Positions 3,865 to 55,469 of a DNA stretch of 64,000 bases are shown here, in pieces (position 1 is the first letter of the stretch; the number at the start of each line of letters is the position of its first letter). Source of the stretch: a virus. Below the pieces are notes generated by a model. It saw only the letters and a list, made by a program, of their open reading frames with translations, made no database searches and was not told the origin of the DNA. The stretch spans positions 1 to 64,000 of the IMG/VR virus record IMGVR_UViG_3300026521_000527; one strand, written 5' to 3'. A program made the position numbers and the translations under genes.

Positions 3865-4434
3865 ATGCAAGTAAATTTAAGTAATATAAAATTGCCTGGT
3901 ACCGAAGAAGAACCTAGCAAAAATCTATCTCAAGAAGAACATCATAAATTAAATTTTGATAAGAATACTGATATTATAAAACATGAAATAGAGTTAAAAA
4001 TAACTCAAATGAATAGAAAAATTGAACGTTTTCATAATAAAGAAAGCATTCTTGATAAAATGATTTCGATGACTAATCAAGAGATAGAATCATTATCACC
4101 AACTGAATTTACAAGGCGAGGGCAGAAACAGGCTATACTTTTGAAACAACTCGAGGCACTTTCAGTTCTGAATGACACAATCCTAAAATATGAAGATAGT
4201 ATTCAAAAATATAATAAAATGATTATTGATATCGAGAATAATAAATTAAAAACATTTATAAGCATTAAATCTATTTCAAAAGAGGAAATCAATGAAGAAA
4301 TGGACTTGAAAAAATTACTGGTTGAAGTTCAAGAGTTAATAAAAAATGGTTCGACTGGTTCGAATGGAGAATTAGGTAACCAAGGAATGTTGTCCGAAAT
4401 AGAAACGGAATTAATAGAGAATAATTATAATTAA
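3865..4434 (+). CDS. Predicted coiled-coil protein, unknown
   Basis: The start has AAGGA six bases upstream. The 189 residues are highly charged, with heptad-like spacing of Ile/Leu from about residue 35 to 135 (alpha-helical coiled coil), then a Gly/Ser/Asn-rich linker (NGSTGSNGELGNQG) and a short acidic tail. No enzyme motif was seen. The gene order and ribosome binding sites of the following genes suggest one operon. It could be a tail chaperone, a scaffold or a small structural protein. Confidence 0.35.
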   Translation: MQVNLSNIKLPGTEEEPSKNLSQEEHHKLNFDKNTDIIKHEIELKITQMNRKIERFHNKESILDKMISMTNQEIESLSPTEFTRRGQKQAILLKQLEALSVLNDTILKYEDSIQKYNKMIIDIENNKLKTFISIKSISKEEINEEMDLKKLLVEVQELIKNGSTGSNGELGNQGMLSEIETELIENNYN

Positions 4435-4455
4435 ATTTATCAAAGAAGGATTAAT

Positions 4456-4794
4456 ATGTTTAAAGAAATACAAGAAAATTATGCAGATCAACTTATGAGA
4501 AAAAAATCAGGTGGTGGGAAATTAGCAGCAGGTGTTATTGGCGGTGCTACTTTATACGGTGCAAAAAAGATGATCAATGGTGTACAAAAGGCTGCCGACC
4601 AAATAAAAGCCAATCAACATGATGAATTAATAGGACAATTAACAGATTCCACAGATATGTCATCAACTGTCGAAACACTTAATTTATTTGATGAAAGTAA
4701 TGGTTTTGAGTACAGACACAATCCAAAATTTACTCTTAATGAAAATTCTACTATTGGGACATTCGTAAATAGATTTAGATATCTAAAGGATTAA
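4456..4794 (+). CDS. Small Gly/Ala-rich protein, unknown
   Basis: This 112-residue protein has a good ribosome binding site (AAGAAGGA). A Gly/Ala-rich hydrophobic segment (GGGKLAAGVIGGATLYGAKK, residues 19-38) could insert into or contact membrane. Similar segments occur in the 512-residue neighbour and in the 148-residue gene at 20.5 kb. The gap to the next start is one base. No family was recognised. Small Gly-zipper proteins of this kind may be packaged in virions or plug the tail tube, but nothing here proves it. Confidence 0.3.
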   Translation: MFKEIQENYADQLMRKKSGGGKLAAGVIGGATLYGAKKMINGVQKAADQIKANQHDELIGQLTDSTDMSSTVETLNLFDESNGFEYRHNPKFTLNENSTIGTFVNRFRYLKD

Positions 4795-4795
4795 A

Positions 4796-6334
4796 ATGAC
4801 AACTTTAGAATTATTTGAAGATCAAGTTAAAAAACACTGGGATTCTTTAAAAAACAATTCGGAAACTTTATTTGAAAATACAACCACTTGTATAAATTTT
4901 AATAAAGAATTTGATAAATTTAAAGAATCTCCTGCTTTTATGGAAGTTGTATCAGAATCCGATCTCTATACTAAAAAAAGAATTATCGAATCTTATTTTT
5001 GGTCAGATATTGTGGCGCCTCTATATGAAGCAACTTTTGAGGTACTCGAAAAAGCTGGGCTTGTTGAAGAAAGTATGCAATCTTTCGAGAACTCTTATAA
5101 ATTTGAAAATACAGCTAGATTAATTCTCGAAAATGGTATTTTTAGTTCTTTTCCGTTAAAAAAAGAACTAACCGATGAATTAATCGAAATGTTCTTTTAT
5201 CCTTCTGATGAAATTATCGAAGAAGGTTTTTCAGAGACAGGAAGAAAGGTAATTGACGCGGGAAGATCTGTCTGGACATTGATGCAGCTATTAGGATACA
5301 TATTAATTTCCCCGGCGACAAGCGCATTAAATTATAAAAGTGATTCACCAACAAGTCGAAAAATGGTTAACCTATTAGCTCTTCTTTTATTGGGTGGTGC
5401 TATCGGTTATGGAGTTCTTGGTGGAGTAAATTTAGCAATATCAGGAGCAGGTGCCGTTGGTATTAAATCGGAAGTTGCTACTGGAGTATTGGCAGCTCTA
5501 TTTGGAATCGGTGGTAAATTTGCAGCCATGAAAACTATCGGTCTACCTGGAGAAATTTGGAAATTTATCAATGAAGATTTAATTGAAATTACTAAATATC
5601 TTTCAATGGTGAATAAACTTGGAGGAAGTGATTCAAAAGCGATTCTTCAAGAAATAGGAATTAATCCAAAAGAATTAATTACTAAATGTTGGGAAAGAAA
5701 TAATCATCAACTTCCGGCAAATGATGATTTAAAGAATGGGTTCTCTAAAATTATTAGAGCAATGTCGAATGGTTCTAACGCTATAAGAAATTTAATTAGA
5801 GATCCTTATTTTTCAAGTAATGCTCAGATGGCACTCTCTTTAAAAAGGGACGCAAGTGATCCAAAATATCAAAAGATGTTTTATGATTTCAGAGTATGTA
5901 TGTATGATAAAATTTTCGAGGTAATTATTGGATATGCTCAGATGATATATTCTGTGGATGATGCAAGTTATGAAATTATCAGACATGCGAACCAGGTTCA
6001 TCGACGCAAAAACTTTAAAGCATTCTTTGCATTAGATCCAAAAACTGATTCAGAAGTAGCTATGTTTAAATTAATTAAATTACTTATCGTCATCGAAGAT
6101 ATGATAATTAAATTGGAAGAACATAAAAGAGAGTTAGTTGCTGATAAATTCATCGATCAATTTATTCAACATATGAAAATGCAAATTAAAAATACATATA
6201 CAACTTTAGATGAAATGGCTCAATTGAGATCATATAATAAAGCAAGATATGATGAAGAACAACCAACAGATGAAGAAAAAGCCGAAGCTATACAAAAAGC
6301 AAGAAATGAAGCCAAAAGAAGTATTTTTTCTTAG
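4796..6334 (+). CDS. Unknown virion-associated protein with hydrophobic Gly-rich segment
   Basis: The 512-residue protein is preceded by AAAGGA. The N- and C-terminal parts are helical and charged. A hydrophobic region at about 190-250 (LLALLLLGGAIGYGVLGG, then an Ala/Gly-rich stretch) looks like one or two membrane-inserting helices. The final 40 residues are highly charged (EEKAEAIQKARNEAKR). No enzymatic motif was recognised. Its place among tail genes and its hydrophobic centre would suit a tail-lumen or membrane-delivered protein, which is inference. Confidence 0.35.
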   Translation: MTTLELFEDQVKKHWDSLKNNSETLFENTTTCINFNKEFDKFKESPAFMEVVSESDLYTKKRIIESYFWSDIVAPLYEATFEVLEKAGLVEESMQSFENSYKFENTARLILENGIFSSFPLKKELTDELIEMFFYPSDEIIEEGFSETGRKVIDAGRSVWTLMQLLGYILISPATSALNYKSDSPTSRKMVNLLALLLLGGAIGYGVLGGVNLAISGAGAVGIKSEVATGVLAALFGIGGKFAAMKTIGLPGEIWKFINEDLIEITKYLSMVNKLGGSDSKAILQEIGINPKELITKCWERNNHQLPANDDLKNGFSKIIRAMSNGSNAIRNLIRDPYFSSNAQMALSLKRDASDPKYQKMFYDFRVCMYDKIFEVIIGYAQMIYSVDDASYEIIRHANQVHRRKNFKAFFALDPKTDSEVAMFKLIKLLIVIEDMIIKLEEHKRELVADKFIDQFIQHMKMQIKNTYTTLDEMAQLRSYNKARYDEEQPTDEEKAEAIQKARNEAKRSIFS

Positions 6335-6356
6335 GTTTCCTAGATAAGGAGAGATA

Positions 6357-6569
6357 ATGGTTACAACATCAACCACAATAAGAACACATGAAGCTAAGAA
6401 AAATGCGGCTATTGGGGCAATAGCCGTTGCGATAGCCCGTAAGAAAAATGATGTTCTTTTTCACAAATTAAAAAAATATAGAAGTCTTTGGAAAGATACA
6501 AAAGCACAGATTGTTCAAAAGTATGGTTCAATAGCCTTACAACAATGGTCTAAAAATCAATCTAAATAA
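6357..6569 (+). CDS. Small basic protein, unknown
   Basis: Starts at ATG 11 bases after AAGGAGAG. The 70 residues are strongly basic, with an Ala-rich helix (AAIGAIAVAIARKKND, residues 17-32) and many Lys/Arg, and only a few acidic residues. The gene is tightly spaced from both neighbours. No family was recognised. Confidence 0.35.
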   Translation: MVTTSTTIRTHEAKKNAAIGAIAVAIARKKNDVLFHKLKKYRSLWKDTKAQIVQKYGSIALQQWSKNQSK

Positions 6570-6585
6570 TATATAGGAGAAAATA

Positions 6586-7287
6586 ATGCTCCTAAAAAAA
6601 ATTAAAGAAATTAAATCTCAGGAGAAACGAGATGATAGAAATAGGATGAAGCAGGATGGTCTAGACCATCCTGCTTCATCCTCCAGTCCTCGATTTCAGA
6701 TTCAAGAAAATAAAGTAGAAGATTTAGATGATGACCTAATTGAAAAATATAAATATAATCCTCTTAGGCAAGATAATATTAAAGAACATAAACCTGTTCA
6801 ATCGGGGTTGAGTTCTAAAGAACTCAACCCCGAGAAAATAACTTTATTTGACTTAAGTCATAAATGTCGTAATTTTGTGGCCATTAAATTATTTGAACCG
6901 AAAGAAATATCTGCCCAAAAATTATACGATCTTGAGGTTGAATATTTATTTTCAAAAATAGATATGTTTATAGATACATCAAATCCAAGTAATAAAATTA
7001 TTTTAGAGAATGATGTGTTCAAGGACACTCTTTATAAATATAAAAATATTATTTTATTGCCAGAAGAATTAAAATCAGCGAGTGGATTTTTAAGAGAATA
7101 TTTTAATATTGAGGAAATAATTATTTTGAATCGTTCTGGGCAATTAGAGAAAACAATAACCGATTATTGTGATTTCTGGTTAGATCTTGACGAAATCAAA
7201 AATACAAGAATTCAAGATTTGGATATCCCAACTGATAAAGAAAAGTGCAAACATTGTTTGATGGGCAATTACGGCTGCGCAATTTAA
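6586..7287 (+). CDS. Unknown protein carrying two long palindromes, Cys-rich C terminus
   Basis: A 233-residue protein with ribosome binding site ATAGGAG. The N-terminal ~85 residues are low-complexity and are encoded partly by two large inverted repeats (6643-6682 and 6802-6833), so this part is probably a tolerant linker. The remainder (about 90-225) looks like a folded domain, and the end (KCKHCLMGNYGC) has a C-x2-C plus Cys that could bind metal. No family was recognised. It is in the tail operon; a role in the virion is inferred from position. Confidence 0.35.
   Translation: MLLKKIKEIKSQEKRDDRNRMKQDGLDHPASSSSPRFQIQENKVEDLDDDLIEKYKYNPLRQDNIKEHKPVQSGLSSKELNPEKITLFDLSHKCRNFVAIKLFEPKEISAQKLYDLEVEYLFSKIDMFIDTSNPSNKIILENDVFKDTLYKYKNIILLPEELKSASGFLREYFNIEEIIILNRSGQLEKTITDYCDFWLDLDEIKNTRIQDLDIPTDKEKCKHCLMGNYGCAI
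6643..6682 (+). repeat. 40-bp perfect palindrome inside a coding sequence
   Basis: Two 20-bp arms meet at TCTAGA with no spacer and no mismatch. The palindrome is fully inside the 233-residue gene at codons ~20-33. The arm begins AGGATGAAGCAGGATGG. This is the longest perfect palindrome in the window. Confidence 0.95.
6802..6833 (+). repeat. 32-bp inverted repeat containing GAGTTC hairpin, inside CDS
   Basis: Arms of 15 bp around a 2-nt centre. The core is GAGTTC-TAAA-GAACTC and the outer part is CGGGGTT/AACCCCG. It lies about 120 bp after the previous palindrome in the same gene and encodes SSKEL. Confidence 0.95.
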
Positions 7288-17451: not shown

Positions 17452-19542
17452 ATGGTTTATGATATTCCAGGAATCACCACTTCAGTTGCTGATAGAAGTT
17501 ATCCTACTGCAACTGAACTTGGTGGTAGATCAGTTTTAATAGCTGGTTTTAGTAAATTTGGTGAAGAAGATTTTCATGAATATTCCGATCCAGAAAAAAT
17601 GAAGTTTTCTTTGGGTGAGATTGATCTGAAGAAATATGGGCTTGGGTTATTCTTCGCTTATGGTGCCTTAAGTAAAACAAGAAATGTTATCTTTAGAAGA
17701 CTTCTCCCCCAAGATGCAACTTTCGCGAATCTTGTTTTTAAAGATCAAGGTGATGGTGTTTCAGTAAAATCAATAAGTTCAGTTATCCAGAAAGATGCTT
17801 TTTATGAAACTCAATTAAATAAAGAAGATACATTTTCAGTTTTGAATGCCAAACATAGAGGAACAGGATATAATAATATATATGTCAGATTTTCTCCAGC
17901 CTCTGATTTTGAAAAATATTTCGCAGATAAGCATGGAAATGTTAAATATAGATTTAATTTTTTAAGTATTTCAATATTTGAAGAATCATCAAGTGGGGTT
18001 AAGACAAAATCAAATGAGTTTGTAATATCTCTAATAGATACTGATCCAGATACGAATGTTCCTCTGGTTGACCCATTGATGACTAATGAATTATTCGCGA
18101 ATAAAAAATTTAGTCAAAATAATGAGTACGCTGACTTTTTAATAAATGTTGATAAATTAGAATTATTTAAGAAAGATTTAAATATAAATGACTTAACAGC
18201 TGATTATAAAGATGGTGTGTTGGTTAAAGGACTCAATAGAGTAATACTTAAAGATACTGAGACTGGTAAAAATTTCGAGGTTACTGCTGATAAAGAAGGT
18301 AGATTAATTCTAAGAGCAACTATTCTTGATGGTAAAGACAAAATGTACACCAAGGTTAATGTAAATGGAAATGATATTTTAAAATCTATTTATATTACTA
18401 ATGGTAAATTTAATATAGAAACAGATGTATCTGGCTCAGGAACAGAAAAAATTCTACCTGAATTTCATATTGATGGTGAAGATAGCTTCTGGGTTCTGCA
18501 AGCTGATGAAGATTCAACTTCAGGGATTAAAACATTTAAATATGTTTCTGAAAGACAGAAACTATATAATTTATTAACTAGTGGTAAATCAGAATTACCT
18601 GGATTATGGAGATTGAAATCAGGATCAGATGGTAGTAATTTAGTTATAAATAACACATTAAATTTCGATAGTTCTAATGCTGAAGTTGGTAAAGAAAATG
18701 CTAAGCAACTTCTAATTAATTTCTTTGATCAAGATCAAAATATTCGTGAAGTAATATATCCAGAACTTGATTTCGATTATATTCCAGATTGGACGGAAGA
18801 TATTGATGTCCAAGAAGCTATTGTAAAATTAGCTGATGATATTGGTATAACAATGCCATTGATAAGTTTTAAAGGTACTCGTAATTACACTGATGACTAT
18901 AAAAGAAGACTTGAAGATCTTTATTTCAGTTCATATAATACCATGATTTATAGTGGCCAATCAAACTTAAATCATTATGTTCCTGAAACAGGTCAAATAA
19001 TTTCATGTCCAGCTAGTTATTACGCAATGCTTGATCATTTAACCATTGATAATAATATGAGTATAACTGAACCAGTAGCGAACATGAATAAAGGTGAATT
19101 ACCAGTAGCTGGTGTTCAACTCTCTTATATAGCAAAAACTCCAGTTATTGCTAAACTTAGAGCAGTTCAGATAAACACAATTATTAAAGAAACTGATGGT
19201 ATTTATTTTATTGATCAACTTACAGCTTATAAAAACGCTAGTAAATTATCAAGAGCGAATGTTGTAAAAGTAATTCATAGAATGCGTAAAGATATTCCTA
19301 GATTACTTAAAGATTTATTACAATTAAAAGCGATAAATGATATTACGGGCAGAGCTGAAGCCAGAGTCCGTGAGTACATGGATAAATGGAAAGCTACACA
19401 AGATAATGTTGTAGATGGAATATTCGAATCAATTGAAGTAAATAGTGTATTTATTTCTGAAGAATTTAAATTAATTATTTCAATAGCAGTTGTTCCTATC
19501 GGCACAATTGAGAAAATTGAAATACCTATTACAGTACTGTAA
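17452..19542 (+). CDS. Tail sheath protein
   Basis: 696 residues, close to T4 gp18 length. The start VYDIPGITTSVADRSYPT is the usual sheath N-terminal arm (G-x-x-x-x-x-x-D-R-S). The C-terminal part (about 590-696) has the conserved sheath core: IDQLTAYKNASKLSRANV, a long helix (MRKDIPRLLKDLLQLKAI), and final strands VVPIGTIEKIEIPITV. The polymerised sheath contracts to drive the tube through the host envelope. The downstream order (two small genes, then tube) fits a contractile-tail cassette. Start with TTAAGGAG. Confidence 0.9.
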   Translation: MVYDIPGITTSVADRSYPTATELGGRSVLIAGFSKFGEEDFHEYSDPEKMKFSLGEIDLKKYGLGLFFAYGALSKTRNVIFRRLLPQDATFANLVFKDQGDGVSVKSISSVIQKDAFYETQLNKEDTFSVLNAKHRGTGYNNIYVRFSPASDFEKYFADKHGNVKYRFNFLSISIFEESSSGVKTKSNEFVISLIDTDPDTNVPLVDPLMTNELFANKKFSQNNEYADFLINVDKLELFKKDLNINDLTADYKDGVLVKGLNRVILKDTETGKNFEVTADKEGRLILRATILDGKDKMYTKVNVNGNDILKSIYITNGKFNIETDVSGSGTEKILPEFHIDGEDSFWVLQADEDSTSGIKTFKYVSERQKLYNLLTSGKSELPGLWRLKSGSDGSNLVINNTLNFDSSNAEVGKENAKQLLINFFDQDQNIREVIYPELDFDYIPDWTEDIDVQEAIVKLADDIGITMPLISFKGTRNYTDDYKRRLEDLYFSSYNTMIYSGQSNLNHYVPETGQIISCPASYYAMLDHLTIDNNMSITEPVANMNKGELPVAGVQLSYIAKTPVIAKLRAVQINTIIKETDGIYFIDQLTAYKNASKLSRANVVKVIHRMRKDIPRLLKDLLQLKAINDITGRAEARVREYMDKWKATQDNVVDGIFESIEVNSVFISEEFKLIISIAVVPIGTIEKIEIPITVL

Positions 19543-52421: not shown

Positions 52422-53222
52422 TTAATTCTTTATATCGTGTTCCCAAACCAACTTAAAGTTTTCTTTATCAATATGTATTTTATTTATCAAATCACTGAGT
52501 TCAATTAAATAATCTTCTATTTTATTTGATTGAGGTCTTGAATTAGATATTAAATAACATTCAAAATACGGATCATCTGAATTTGGAATAATTAAAAATA
52601 TTTTCCAGAGCGCTGATGGAATATTTACCCGAACTTTATTTTTAATAAACTTATCACTTCTCAAGACTCCGGTAACTACATAAATTTTTTTATTAATTAA
52701 GGCGAGTTTTCTTTCGTATTTTTCAAGCTTTGACCACAATCCTCTATTTAAATTCTCTTCTTGTGGGACACATGCGTTTATTACATAAACCTCATCTGCT
52801 GCCTCAATATTTATATCAACACTACTTGATGCCGGCAAATGTCCAGCATCAAAACCATCATAAGAATATTCTTTGTATGATGGTCTATACTCCCTCGGAA
52901 TTCTTTTATCAGTTCTTAGATACTGTCTTTTATATTTCTCAACCAAAATGTCCGCTGAATCTAATGAATAAATCACAAAATCAGGCGTGTTGTAATAATA
53001 ATTATAACACTCCTGATATTTTATATTTATTAAAACTTGATTACAATCGTCTTTTATATAAAATCCAGTTGGTTTATGGGGAGCCAAATAAGACTCAACT
53101 TGATCGGGAACTTTTAAAGTATCTGCCCACCCAAATACAGAATTCAAAAATATTAGCAAAAAAAATAATTTAATCTTGGCTCGAGCCAAGATTAAATTAT
53201 TAAACTTCATGAATTTAAACAT
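52422..53222 (-). CDS. Secreted DNA/RNA non-specific endonuclease (NUC1 family)
   Basis: 266 residues. N-terminal signal peptide (KIKLFFLLIFLNSVFGWA, residues 16-33). Two Cys (60, 72) probably paired. The NUC1 core is GFDAGHLPASSSVDI (123-137; usual D-R-G-H, here D-A-G-H) followed by INACVPQEENLNRGLWSKLE (148-167), the Asn metal-binding helix. The pattern CNQVL ... YQECYNYYY ... IPREYR ... YDGFDAGH is like the Campylobacter prophage DNase family. Expected to degrade nucleic acid in the periplasm or outside. A 38-bp palindrome encodes the residues between the first ATGs and the signal peptide. Confidence 0.75.
   Translation of the reverse strand: MFKFMKFNNLILARAKIKLFFLLIFLNSVFGWADTLKVPDQVESYLAPHKPTGFYIKDDCNQVLINIKYQECYNYYYNTPDFVIYSLDSADILVEKYKRQYLRTDKRIPREYRPSYKEYSYDGFDAGHLPASSSVDINIEAADEVYVINACVPQEENLNRGLWSKLEKYERKLALINKKIYVVTGVLRSDKFIKNKVRVNIPSALWKIFLIIPNSDDPYFECYLISNSRPQSNKIEDYLIELSDLINKIHIDKENFKLVWEHDIKN
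53164..53201 (-). repeat. 38-bp perfect palindrome at 5' end of nuclease CDS
   Basis: Arms of 19 bp (AATTTAATCTTGGCTCGAG region) meeting at CTCGAG, 20 bases after the start codon; it may control translation. Confidence 0.95.
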
Positions 53223-53238
53223 TATTTATCCAACCTTT

Positions 53239-55155
53239 TTATTTTTTAATAATTCCAATTCCAAGACAATGGGGACATTCCTGAATACCAATATCCTCCT
53301 GTAAACCATAAACTTTTGATTCAAACAATCTAACTGAATTTTGTGCTGTGTCCTTTAATTGATATAATATTTTATAATTCAGAATTGTATTTATATTATT
53401 GAGTATTTTATCTTTCGAATTAAATATCTCAAAAGAGTTCCGAAGAACTCTTTTCTCTTTTAATAAATTTCGGAATAATTTTATTAAAAGAATATTTCTC
53501 TGAATTGAGTTCTTTTGAACTCTTTTATTGTAAATTTTTATATTTATATTAGTATTGATATAAAAGTTAAGAATCCAATAATTATAAATTAATTTCTGTC
53601 TAAGTTGATTCTTTTTAATGTTGTGGTCTATTTTATCGATGCTGTTTTGATATACTCTTATCGAAGTCGATAATATCAAATGCCATAAAAGATAATTAAT
53701 TTTATTTAATATCTTTTCAGTTCTTTGGGACTCAAATAATTTATTTCTTTCAATATCTAGAATAGAATTACTATCTTGAAATTCTCTTATTAGATAATAA
53801 CTCTTTAATATTTTTAGCTTTTTAATTTCTAGTTGAGTTTGAGTTATTTTTGACTCAATTAAAATAATTTCTTCTTGAAATTGCTTATGTTTTTGATTCA
53901 TATCAATTAATGAATCTTTTATCTGGGCGACAGCCAGTGCAATATTTTCAGTATTGAATAAAAAAGAAAATATTTTTTCAGAATCAGTTGTTTTGGAACC
54001 TATTAAAAATAAACCATCGTATTGATTAGTATATGCAATTCTTTCTGTCTGTTCTTTTAACGCTCCTTTAAAATTTTTATATAGGTTTTTTACATCAATA
54101 TATTTGAAACCTATTTCTTCAACTGCTTCTTTTAATTTATCTGCGGCAAGATTTTTACCATAATAAGCTTCACCGTTGATAATAAATTGAACTTTTTTTC
54201 CTTTATAAAGTAATCCAATTTCTTTATGTTCTTTACCTTGCTCCTCTTCTTCTAATGTTGGTATATACCCAAAAGTAATTTCAGTTTCTAGATTTCGACC
54301 ACCTGGATTTAATCGAGGATAGTTATTAACATTAAAATTATTAAAAAGAATAGATTCAATTGCACGAAGCGAAGCACTTTTACCACTATTATTAGGCCCT
54401 CTGATAACAGTAAACCCACTATATACAAAATGTTGTTGTTTTATACTTTGAAAATTTTTGATACTGTTATAAAAGAATCCACTTTCTGGGAGTTCACCTT
54501 CTTGATTAACTATTTCTAAAGTAGGTATTCCATCTTTATCTGGAGTTGCTTGAACTTCATAAACAAGATGTGCATCAAAATCCAACTCTTCAGTTTGTGA
54601 GACAACAACTAAAGTGAATCCATAGGTATCACAAAATTTTCTAAGAAAACTACTCAATCTAATTCTATATTGTGGACTAACTTGACTGAGACTTTCATCA
54701 AAAATATAGAATTTATTTTGGCTGTATAAATAGCCTATTAGTATTTTGAAAAATAAACTTGCGATTGAAAGCACTCCACCACCATTACTCGCAGTTAGCT
54801 CATCGTTTTTTGCAATCTCAATCCCATTCTGATAAAAAATTATATCGTACTTTTGGGTTCCAGAAGCACTCTTTCCTCTTTGAATTCTGGGTTTTATATC
54901 TAATTTATAGTCAGCTTCGAAAACATCAACTAGAGCTGAATTTACAACTTTAAGAATAAAATCTTTCCTTTTTTCAAGCTTATGATTTTTTAATAATTCA
55001 AGAAGTACTTTTGCTTCAGTATGATGTTTAATTCTAACTTCGAGTGCTGCAGCACTCGAAGTTAGATTATTTTTTTCATGTTCAAGATGAATTAAATTAT
55101 CCTCTTGAACTCTGAGTTTAATATGAGTCTCATTGTAATTTGAAGTCAAATCCAT
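53239..55155 (-). CDS. Circularly permuted Rad50/SbcC/gp46-like ATPase
   Basis: 638 residues, TAATG overlap with upstream gene. Order of motifs is reversed relative to Rad50/gp46: short coil (about 8-62), C-terminal-lobe signature LTASNGGGVLSI (120-131), Walker B KFYIFDES (148-155), H-loop position VVVSQ (183-187), then the N-terminal lobe NFQSIK (234-239), FTVIRGPNNSGKSASLRAIE (Walker A, 248-267), long coil (about 400-620) and a final CPHC hook (627-630). It should pair with the gp47-like nuclease of the same operon to process DNA ends for recombination. Contains palindrome 55033-55066 and GAGTTC hairpins near 53435 and 53507. Confidence 0.7.
   Translation of the reverse strand: MDLTSNYNETHIKLRVQEDNLIHLEHEKNNLTSSAAALEVRIKHHTEAKVLLELLKNHKLEKRKDFILKVVNSALVDVFEADYKLDIKPRIQRGKSASGTQKYDIIFYQNGIEIAKNDELTASNGGGVLSIASLFFKILIGYLYSQNKFYIFDESLSQVSPQYRIRLSSFLRKFCDTYGFTLVVVSQTEELDFDAHLVYEVQATPDKDGIPTLEIVNQEGELPESGFFYNSIKNFQSIKQQHFVYSGFTVIRGPNNSGKSASLRAIESILFNNFNVNNYPRLNPGGRNLETEITFGYIPTLEEEEQGKEHKEIGLLYKGKKVQFIINGEAYYGKNLAADKLKEAVEEIGFKYIDVKNLYKNFKGALKEQTERIAYTNQYDGLFLIGSKTTDSEKIFSFLFNTENIALAVAQIKDSLIDMNQKHKQFQEEIILIESKITQTQLEIKKLKILKSYYLIREFQDSNSILDIERNKLFESQRTEKILNKINYLLWHLILSTSIRVYQNSIDKIDHNIKKNQLRQKLIYNYWILNFYINTNINIKIYNKRVQKNSIQRNILLIKLFRNLLKEKRVLRNSFEIFNSKDKILNNINTILNYKILYQLKDTAQNSVRLFESKVYGLQEDIGIQECPHCLGIGIIKK
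53431..53522 (-). repeat. Two GAGTTC-type hairpins in the Rad50-like gene
   Basis: 53431-53454 has 10-bp arms AAAAGAGTTC/GAACTCTTTT with the mRNA-sense loop TTCG. 53507-53522 has GAGTTC/GAACTC with sense loop AAAA. Confidence 0.9.
55033..55066 (-). repeat. 34-bp perfect palindrome inside Rad50-like gene
   Basis: Arms of 17 bp (TCTAACTTCGAGTGCTG) meeting at CTGCAG, at codons ~30-41, in the N-terminal coil. Confidence 0.95.
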
Positions 55156-55469
55156 TACTTATTTTCCTTTAAAATATTCAAAGATAGATAAGTTTGGCAG
55201 GTAATTGCTTCTTTTAATGTACTAAAATCAAAAGTAATTAACTCCATTTTATCAGTTACATGAAATCTCAATTTCTTAATACTTATATCAGTCAGTAAAC
55301 TAACTGACCATAAATCTGGATGTTCTTTTCGTAATCCAATCATCTCAATATAATTTGACTGTAAATTTATACTAACACCAGAAGGAAATGTTACAAAAAT
55401 ATCTTCCTTTTCATTACCCTTACCAAGACCTCGACTGAAAATATAATCCCCAACATGCAATTCTTTCAT
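55155..55469 (-). CDS. Small protein between gp47-like and Rad50-like genes
   Basis: 104 residues, coupled on both sides (ATGA at 55466-55469; TAATG at 55155). Beta-rich start with GDYIFSRGLGKGNEKEDIFV resembling a small SH3-like or OB-like barrel. Its fixed place between the two nuclease subunits suggests an accessory subunit or regulator of that complex. Not recognised. Confidence 0.4.
   Translation of the reverse strand: MKELHVGDYIFSRGLGKGNEKEDIFVTFPSGVSINLQSNYIEMIGLRKEHPDLWSVSLLTDISIKKLRFHVTDKMELITFDFSTLKEAITCQTYLSLNILKENK

Follow-up and report, generated by a model that had tools for sequence, protein, structure and literature searches.

A Rad50-like phage ATPase with circularly permuted lobes, and its two-gene relatives

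Rad50 and SMC ATPases are pictured as a single polypeptide, leading out through a coiled coil and returning, and hook and head are believed to communicate through this continuous chain. How, then, should one read a phage gene in which the two ATPase lobes stand in reversed order? Such a gene lies in the window, that is, the whole stretch of 64,000 nucleotides analysed here (positions 1 to 64,000 of IMG/VR virus record IMGVR_UViG_3300026521_000527, which is 136,864 bases long). A first-pass annotation made from the sequence had described it as a Rad50/gp46-like ATPase with circularly permuted lobes and with an order known from no described Rad50 family. Relatives, profile HMMs and structure models now support the description, and in the open-access literature searched we found neither a family with this order nor any paper on a permuted or split Rad50. 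Fusions of the Mre11 and Rad50 genes have been reported in Mimivirus R555 and others (PMC3175470); these also are odd gene architectures of the same complex in viruses, but there Mre11 is joined to a Rad50 of canonical order, without permutation. For the fusion of Bacillus phage 0305phi8-36, one SbcC P-loop NTPase segment was not observed (PMC3175470), and a survey of jumbo phages treats SbcC as a single conserved ATPase (PMC7824862).

Order of lobes and motifs in the window protein

The gene reads on the minus strand, which had not been specified before, as a single uninterrupted frame of 638 codons from an ATG at 55155 to a stop at 53239-53241 (Table 1). Its domains follow one another as short coil, lobe II with signature and Walker B, linker, lobe I with Walker A, long coil and CxxC, and eight residues remain beyond CPHC before the C terminus. 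All motifs stand in this one frame exactly where the first-pass annotation had placed them, with SNGGG and YIFDE ahead of GPNNSGKS and CPHC at the C-terminal end; the permuted order is confirmed. The canonical proteins (T4 gp46, SbcC, Rad50) likewise have both ABC lobes, an antiparallel coil arm (predicted in our case), a CxxC and an Mre11/gp47 partner, but they run Walker A, coil, hook, coil, signature, Walker B, with the hook internal.

Table 1. Positions of the permuted gene, its parts and the adjacent genes in the window
Feature	Position	Strand	Basis
Circularly permuted Rad50 gene, 638 aa	53239..55155	-	Motifs, HMM matches, model
N-terminal coil helix, residues 1-60	54976..55155	-	Model: antiparallel partner of 403-460
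Lobe II (C-terminal lobe of canonical Rad50), residues 61-219	54499..54975	-	Structure alignment; PHROG 15167
ABC signature-like motif SNGGG (123-127)	54775..54789	-	Sequence
Walker B YIFDE (150-154), catalytic E154	54694..54708	-	Sequence
H-loop position Q187	54595..54597	-	Alignment
Junction linker 220-226 between lobe II (last strand) and lobe I (first strand)	54478..54498	-	Model, pLDDT ~92-94
Lobe I (N-terminal lobe of canonical Rad50), residues 227-402	53950..54477	-	Structure alignment; Pfam below cut-off
Walker A GPNNSGKS (253-260)	54376..54399	-	Sequence
Q-loop Q378	54022..54024	-	Alignment
Long coil: helix 403-460, break, distal helices 465-621	53293..53949	-	Model; L014 likewise
CPHC (627-630), terminal zinc-hook-like motif	53266..53277	-	Sequence
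Small gene, 104 aa, between Mre11 and Rad50	55155..55469	-	Homologue in the same place in L012
Mre11/SbcD-like nuclease, 351 aa	55466..56521	-	Metallophos E 5.5e-10; SbcD PHROG 100 E 6.8e-08

This order is also more than a chance arrangement of motifs. Profile HMMs built from phage genes that encode the two halves separately (described below) match residues 13-203 (E 1.3e-22) and 231-439 (E 1.9e-21) of the window protein, and neither reversed nor shuffled proteins scored against the same HMMs. Across the five permuted proteins found in total, the HMM made only from split C genes hits the first half with E from 1.3e-22 to 2.9e-27, and that made only from split N genes the second half with E from 7.5e-22 to 2.3e-29. 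HMMs of canonical Rad50, built from five phage proteins (T4 gp46, Moonbeam and three others), gave no match to the first half of the permuted proteins and matched the second half in 2 of them only (~1e-9).

The same order in other contigs and the split genes of relatives

Canonical phage Rad50s run in the other order and metagenome assembly can rearrange sequences, so that the gene might be an assembly artefact or two broken pieces fused in a single genome. For that reason we looked at its occurrence elsewhere. Six-frame analysis of 77 IMG/VR loci, retrieved by scanning with a profile that covers the Walker A half, revealed the permuted order in a single ORF in four further contigs (L012, L013, L014 and L015, of 281, 35, 114 and 66 kb). 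They derive from three metagenome accessions and encode proteins of 604, 660, 685 and 677 aa, respectively, that are 42-55% identical to the window protein; moreover, neighbouring genes of the window locus are shared with L012, and the catalytic residues are retained. Four other contigs encode the same uninterrupted order and so exclude both a faulty assembly and a broken copy; the artefact reading is thereby refuted and keeps practically no probability. Nor do the relatives point to a normally ordered family from which this copy was pieced together: the five permuted proteins form one clade (support 99/99), and most of their relatives consist of two intact genes.

The permuted form was confined to these contigs in every search made. 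Two more profile scans of IMG/VR yielded no additional permuted contig, a profile of the permuted alignment found zero relatives in reference genomes and zero in plasmids, a scan of viral contigs with one protein as query gave no match, and the GenBank phages searched held split relatives alone. Some candidates had to be discarded. Acinetobacter phage vB_AbaM_3098 seemed permuted, with Walker A at residue 348, and is actually a fusion of Mre11 with a canonical-order Rad50; this 938-aa protein (L011:2972-5788) is annotated as hypothetical. Salinibacter gene 24 and the AAA-ATPase of Pseudomonas phage Jeremy match only in the vicinity of Walker A and have no CxxC.

In 45 of the 77 loci the two halves are separate genes: an N gene with Walker A and the long coil, nearly always with a CxxC a few residues before the stop, and a C gene of ~210 aa with the short coil, signature and Walker B, which belongs to PHROG 15167. 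The N gene always lies upstream of the C gene on the same strand, in all 45 loci as well as in two GenBank phages, with gaps of 134 to 4653 bases in the former and of 822 and 6272 in the latter. The remaining surveyed loci, neither two-gene nor permuted, show the N gene alone within the fetched flank. A later scan added eight non-permuted loci, all eight with a split N gene and six of them with the C gene too. Among named phages, the split pair occurs in Bacillus phage vB_BboS-125 (gp35 and gp32) and in Microbacterium phage Magritte (gp2 and gp155), to which can be added the uncultured huge phage LR745208 and the C gene of Tunturi_5. Magritte gp4, considered as N half, proved to be a clamp-loader-like ATPase, the real N half being gp155. 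Of the 77 loci, 64 include an Mre11 gene; those with both halves show the order N, C, Mre11 (27 loci) or N, Mre11, C (18 loci).

Compared part by part, the permuted protein is a C gene joined ahead of an N gene. Both halves are homologous to their split counterparts along their length, CxxC ends the N half in most split pairs as it does here (it is absent from Magritte gp155), and Mre11 is found in the genome, mostly close by. The two forms differ in that split Rad50 is made of two proteins with the N gene first, whereas the permuted one is a single ORF with the C half first. They share the same asymmetry of the coils: lobe I is separated from CxxC by 200-237 residues in permuted proteins and by 152-348 residues in split N genes, and lobe II is preceded by 77-90 residues in permuted proteins and by ~85 in split C genes. 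The first-pass lengths for the window protein (~55 and ~220) were right, the first coil being of ~55-60 residues and the second of ~220, and their inequality is a property of the whole split and permuted group, not a peculiarity of this protein.

Active site, predicted fold and Mre11 partner gene

The Walker A lysine (K259) and the Walker B Asp-Glu pair (D153/E154) are invariant in the five permuted proteins. The Q-loop glutamine (Q378) is present in all five as well and in 22 of 24 split N genes, and CxxC in all five and in all 24 aligned split N genes, although without its usual proline in four of the five. Two positions set the permuted proteins apart. First, they carry SNGGG, with Asn (N124) before the GG, instead of the canonical signature SGG(E/Q), and split C genes have Arg, Ser, Tyr, Thr or His there. 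Second, the H-loop residue is Gln in all five, whereas His is kept in 20 of 20 split C genes. These two residues are markers of the permuted clade. Taken by themselves, they could indicate an expressed but catalytically degenerate protein that serves only as a structural tether. We find this quite improbable, given that K259, D153/E154 and Q378 are invariant and that the signature position is variable in split relatives too. The pattern of residues rather suggests an altered hydrolysis, not a loss of ATP binding.

Structures were modelled with AlphaFold2; for the window protein the input alignment contained the 5 permuted proteins together with 24 split N genes and 20 split C genes. With split genes among the inputs, the models test the fold and not independent ancestry. 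The model of the window protein has a pLDDT of 80.9 (mostly near 90 in the head) and a pTM of 0.64. By VIA-align, residues 57-219 superpose on residues 738-882 of Pyrococcus furiosus Rad50 (1f2u_B; Z 9.0, 143 of 145 residues, rmsd 2.9) and residues 225-400 on residues 2-167 of an SMC head (1xex_A; Z 10.1, 149 of 166, rmsd 3.0). Helices 3-60 and 403-460 are modelled as an antiparallel pair, and residues 1-462 match antiparallel coiled coils such as the dynein stalk 8i3j (120 residues, rmsd 1.2), a weak indication when taken alone, since helices often match one another in this way. The L014 model repeats all these features, with helix 5-90, lobe II, a junction loop at 233-246, lobe I lying on Rad50 residues 1-162, helix 436-492, a break and distal helices, and it places two short terminal strands around the CxxC; its head, too, lies mostly at a pLDDT of ~90. 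Both models thus predict a head of the Rad50/SMC type whose lobes follow each other in reversed order along the chain, connected by a short loop, and place both chain ends within the coiled-coil arm. The earlier claim that both termini sit at the hook end is upheld by the model as far as the arm is concerned; CxxC may sit at the very tip, but it falls in the distal 160 residues, where pLDDT is ~40-70. The short coil pairs in the model with the opening 57 residues of its longer counterpart; what remains of the latter must, on that model, fold back on itself or pair between subunits, in a region of low confidence.

The gp47/Mre11-like gene with which the first-pass annotation had paired the ATPase is intact and lies two genes upstream. 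Its product keeps the metallophosphoesterase motifs D23, H25, GD66-67, GNHD104-107 and GHxH215-218. The TAA of the small gene in between overlaps the Rad50 ATG (TAATG), and at its other side the small gene overlaps the Mre11-like gene, so that Mre11, small gene and Rad50 look, from the sequence, like one translationally coupled operon. Mre11 also lies two genes upstream in L012; in L014 and L015 it shares the strand of the permuted gene at a distance of ~14 kb upstream, and no Mre11 was found on the L013 contig, which begins close to the permuted gene.

This neighbourhood bears on whether the protein could be an SMC-like or other ABC ATPase (RecF/RecN, a defence ATPase) that is no Rad50 partner of Mre11. 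Pfam gives only generic matches below cut-off (SMC_N, AAA_27), SMC heads fit the model equally well as Rad50, and the H-loop His, which is absent from some SMC proteins, is missing. Against this stand the adjacent intact Mre11, which in 64 of 77 loci is conserved along with halves of Rad50, the CxxC at the end of the arm and the operon layout; such an identity is very unlikely. A search for an SMC hinge gave no Pfam match at E up to 1.

Several other genes of these loci were recognised. The small proteins (104-105 aa) of the window and of L012 (5022-5339) are 38% identical over 78 residues. In the subclade of L013, L014 and L015 the gene immediately ahead of the permuted one is not Mre11 but encodes a metallo-beta-lactamase-fold protein (L013:2647-3456, L014:4441-5217 and L015:4414-5223; PF00753, E 1.9e-8 for L014). 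The gene directly downstream of the permuted one, at 52422-53222 of the window, encodes a non-specific DNA/RNA endonuclease (PF01223, E 3.9e-24) whose N-terminal part includes a hydrophobic stretch. Nine other large window proteins had no PHROG match; a tail sheath protein encoded at 17452-19542 (PHROG 19666, E 2.3e-12) indicates a contractile-tailed phage.

Proposed history and function

Considering all our observations together, we think it very probable that the protein is a functional natural circular permutant of phage Rad50 (SbcC/gp46) that arose by splitting and rejoining in reverse and that works as the motor of a nuclease with Mre11. An ancestral canonical Rad50 would have broken near its zinc hook into an N gene, with the Walker A lobe, the long coil and a terminal CxxC, and a C gene, with the short coil and the signature/Walker B lobe. 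In one phage lineage a rearrangement would then have put C ahead of N, and a fusion would have produced the permutant, its lobes tied directly by a short loop and both chain ends in the arm.

The trees set permuted and split proteins apart from canonical phage Rad50 (95/95 for the C lobe, 100/100 for the N lobe), a separation to be taken cautiously in view of the long branches of the canonical rows. The permuted clade stands beside all split genes in the N-lobe tree (86/75 for the split genes as one clade), and in the C-lobe tree an AU test of permuted inside versus beside split (p 0.374) does not reject that same placement. Both results would suit the opposite history, in which tandem duplication with trimming first permuted a canonical Rad50 and breakage at the linker later gave rise to the split genes. 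As the trees allow the permuted clade either inside or beside the split genes, we infer the polarity from gene order. Permutation first predicts split loci with C before N, whereas all 45 two-gene IMG/VR loci and the two GenBank phages have N before C, as breakage of a canonical gene predicts; we therefore consider permutation first unlikely and favour a split followed by a reversed fusion.

Functionally, the polypeptide is predicted to fold as a usual Rad50 head, and two such heads would close around two ATPs, with the neighbouring Mre11 docked at the base of the arm. The terminal CxxC would pair with that of a partner and coordinate zinc. In T4, ATP use by Rad50 (gp46) renders the exonuclease of Mre11 (gp47) processive (PMC13402864), and homology together with operon structure leads us to expect the same mechanism here. 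As with T4 gp46/gp47, the ATP cycle would drive Mre11 to resect or degrade DNA ends during recombination and replication of the phage; the resected ends may serve recombination-dependent replication, or host DNA may be degraded.

Head, arm and CxxC are all retained in the permutant and in the split forms, but the chain is interrupted within the arm; in the permutant the lobes are joined instead. We tentatively suggest that the permutant may represent a Rad50 class with a covalently open arm and lobes tied at the head, in which signals between hook and head could not follow a continuous chain. If true, covalent continuity from lobe to hook to lobe would, given the split Rad50 as well, be dispensable for the Mre11-Rad50 cycle. 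A natural permutant and a widespread split form offer ready-made tests of the idea of coupling along the chain. The case is also a rare one in that the likely intermediate of such a permutation, with the halves on two separate genes, is common to this day.

The two-gene family is large (L004/L006, L009, L016-L088, L109-L116), with Mre11 between or beside the N and C genes; L009 offers an example of a pair (3980-5395 and 6217-6852). Its members are annotated as ATPase, exonuclease or hypothetical, so that our reading corrects the annotation of a repair complex in many phages. One split N gene (L088:4603-6726) carries an intein-like insert of ~310 aa inside Walker A (GPNNSGK / TALIRAI).
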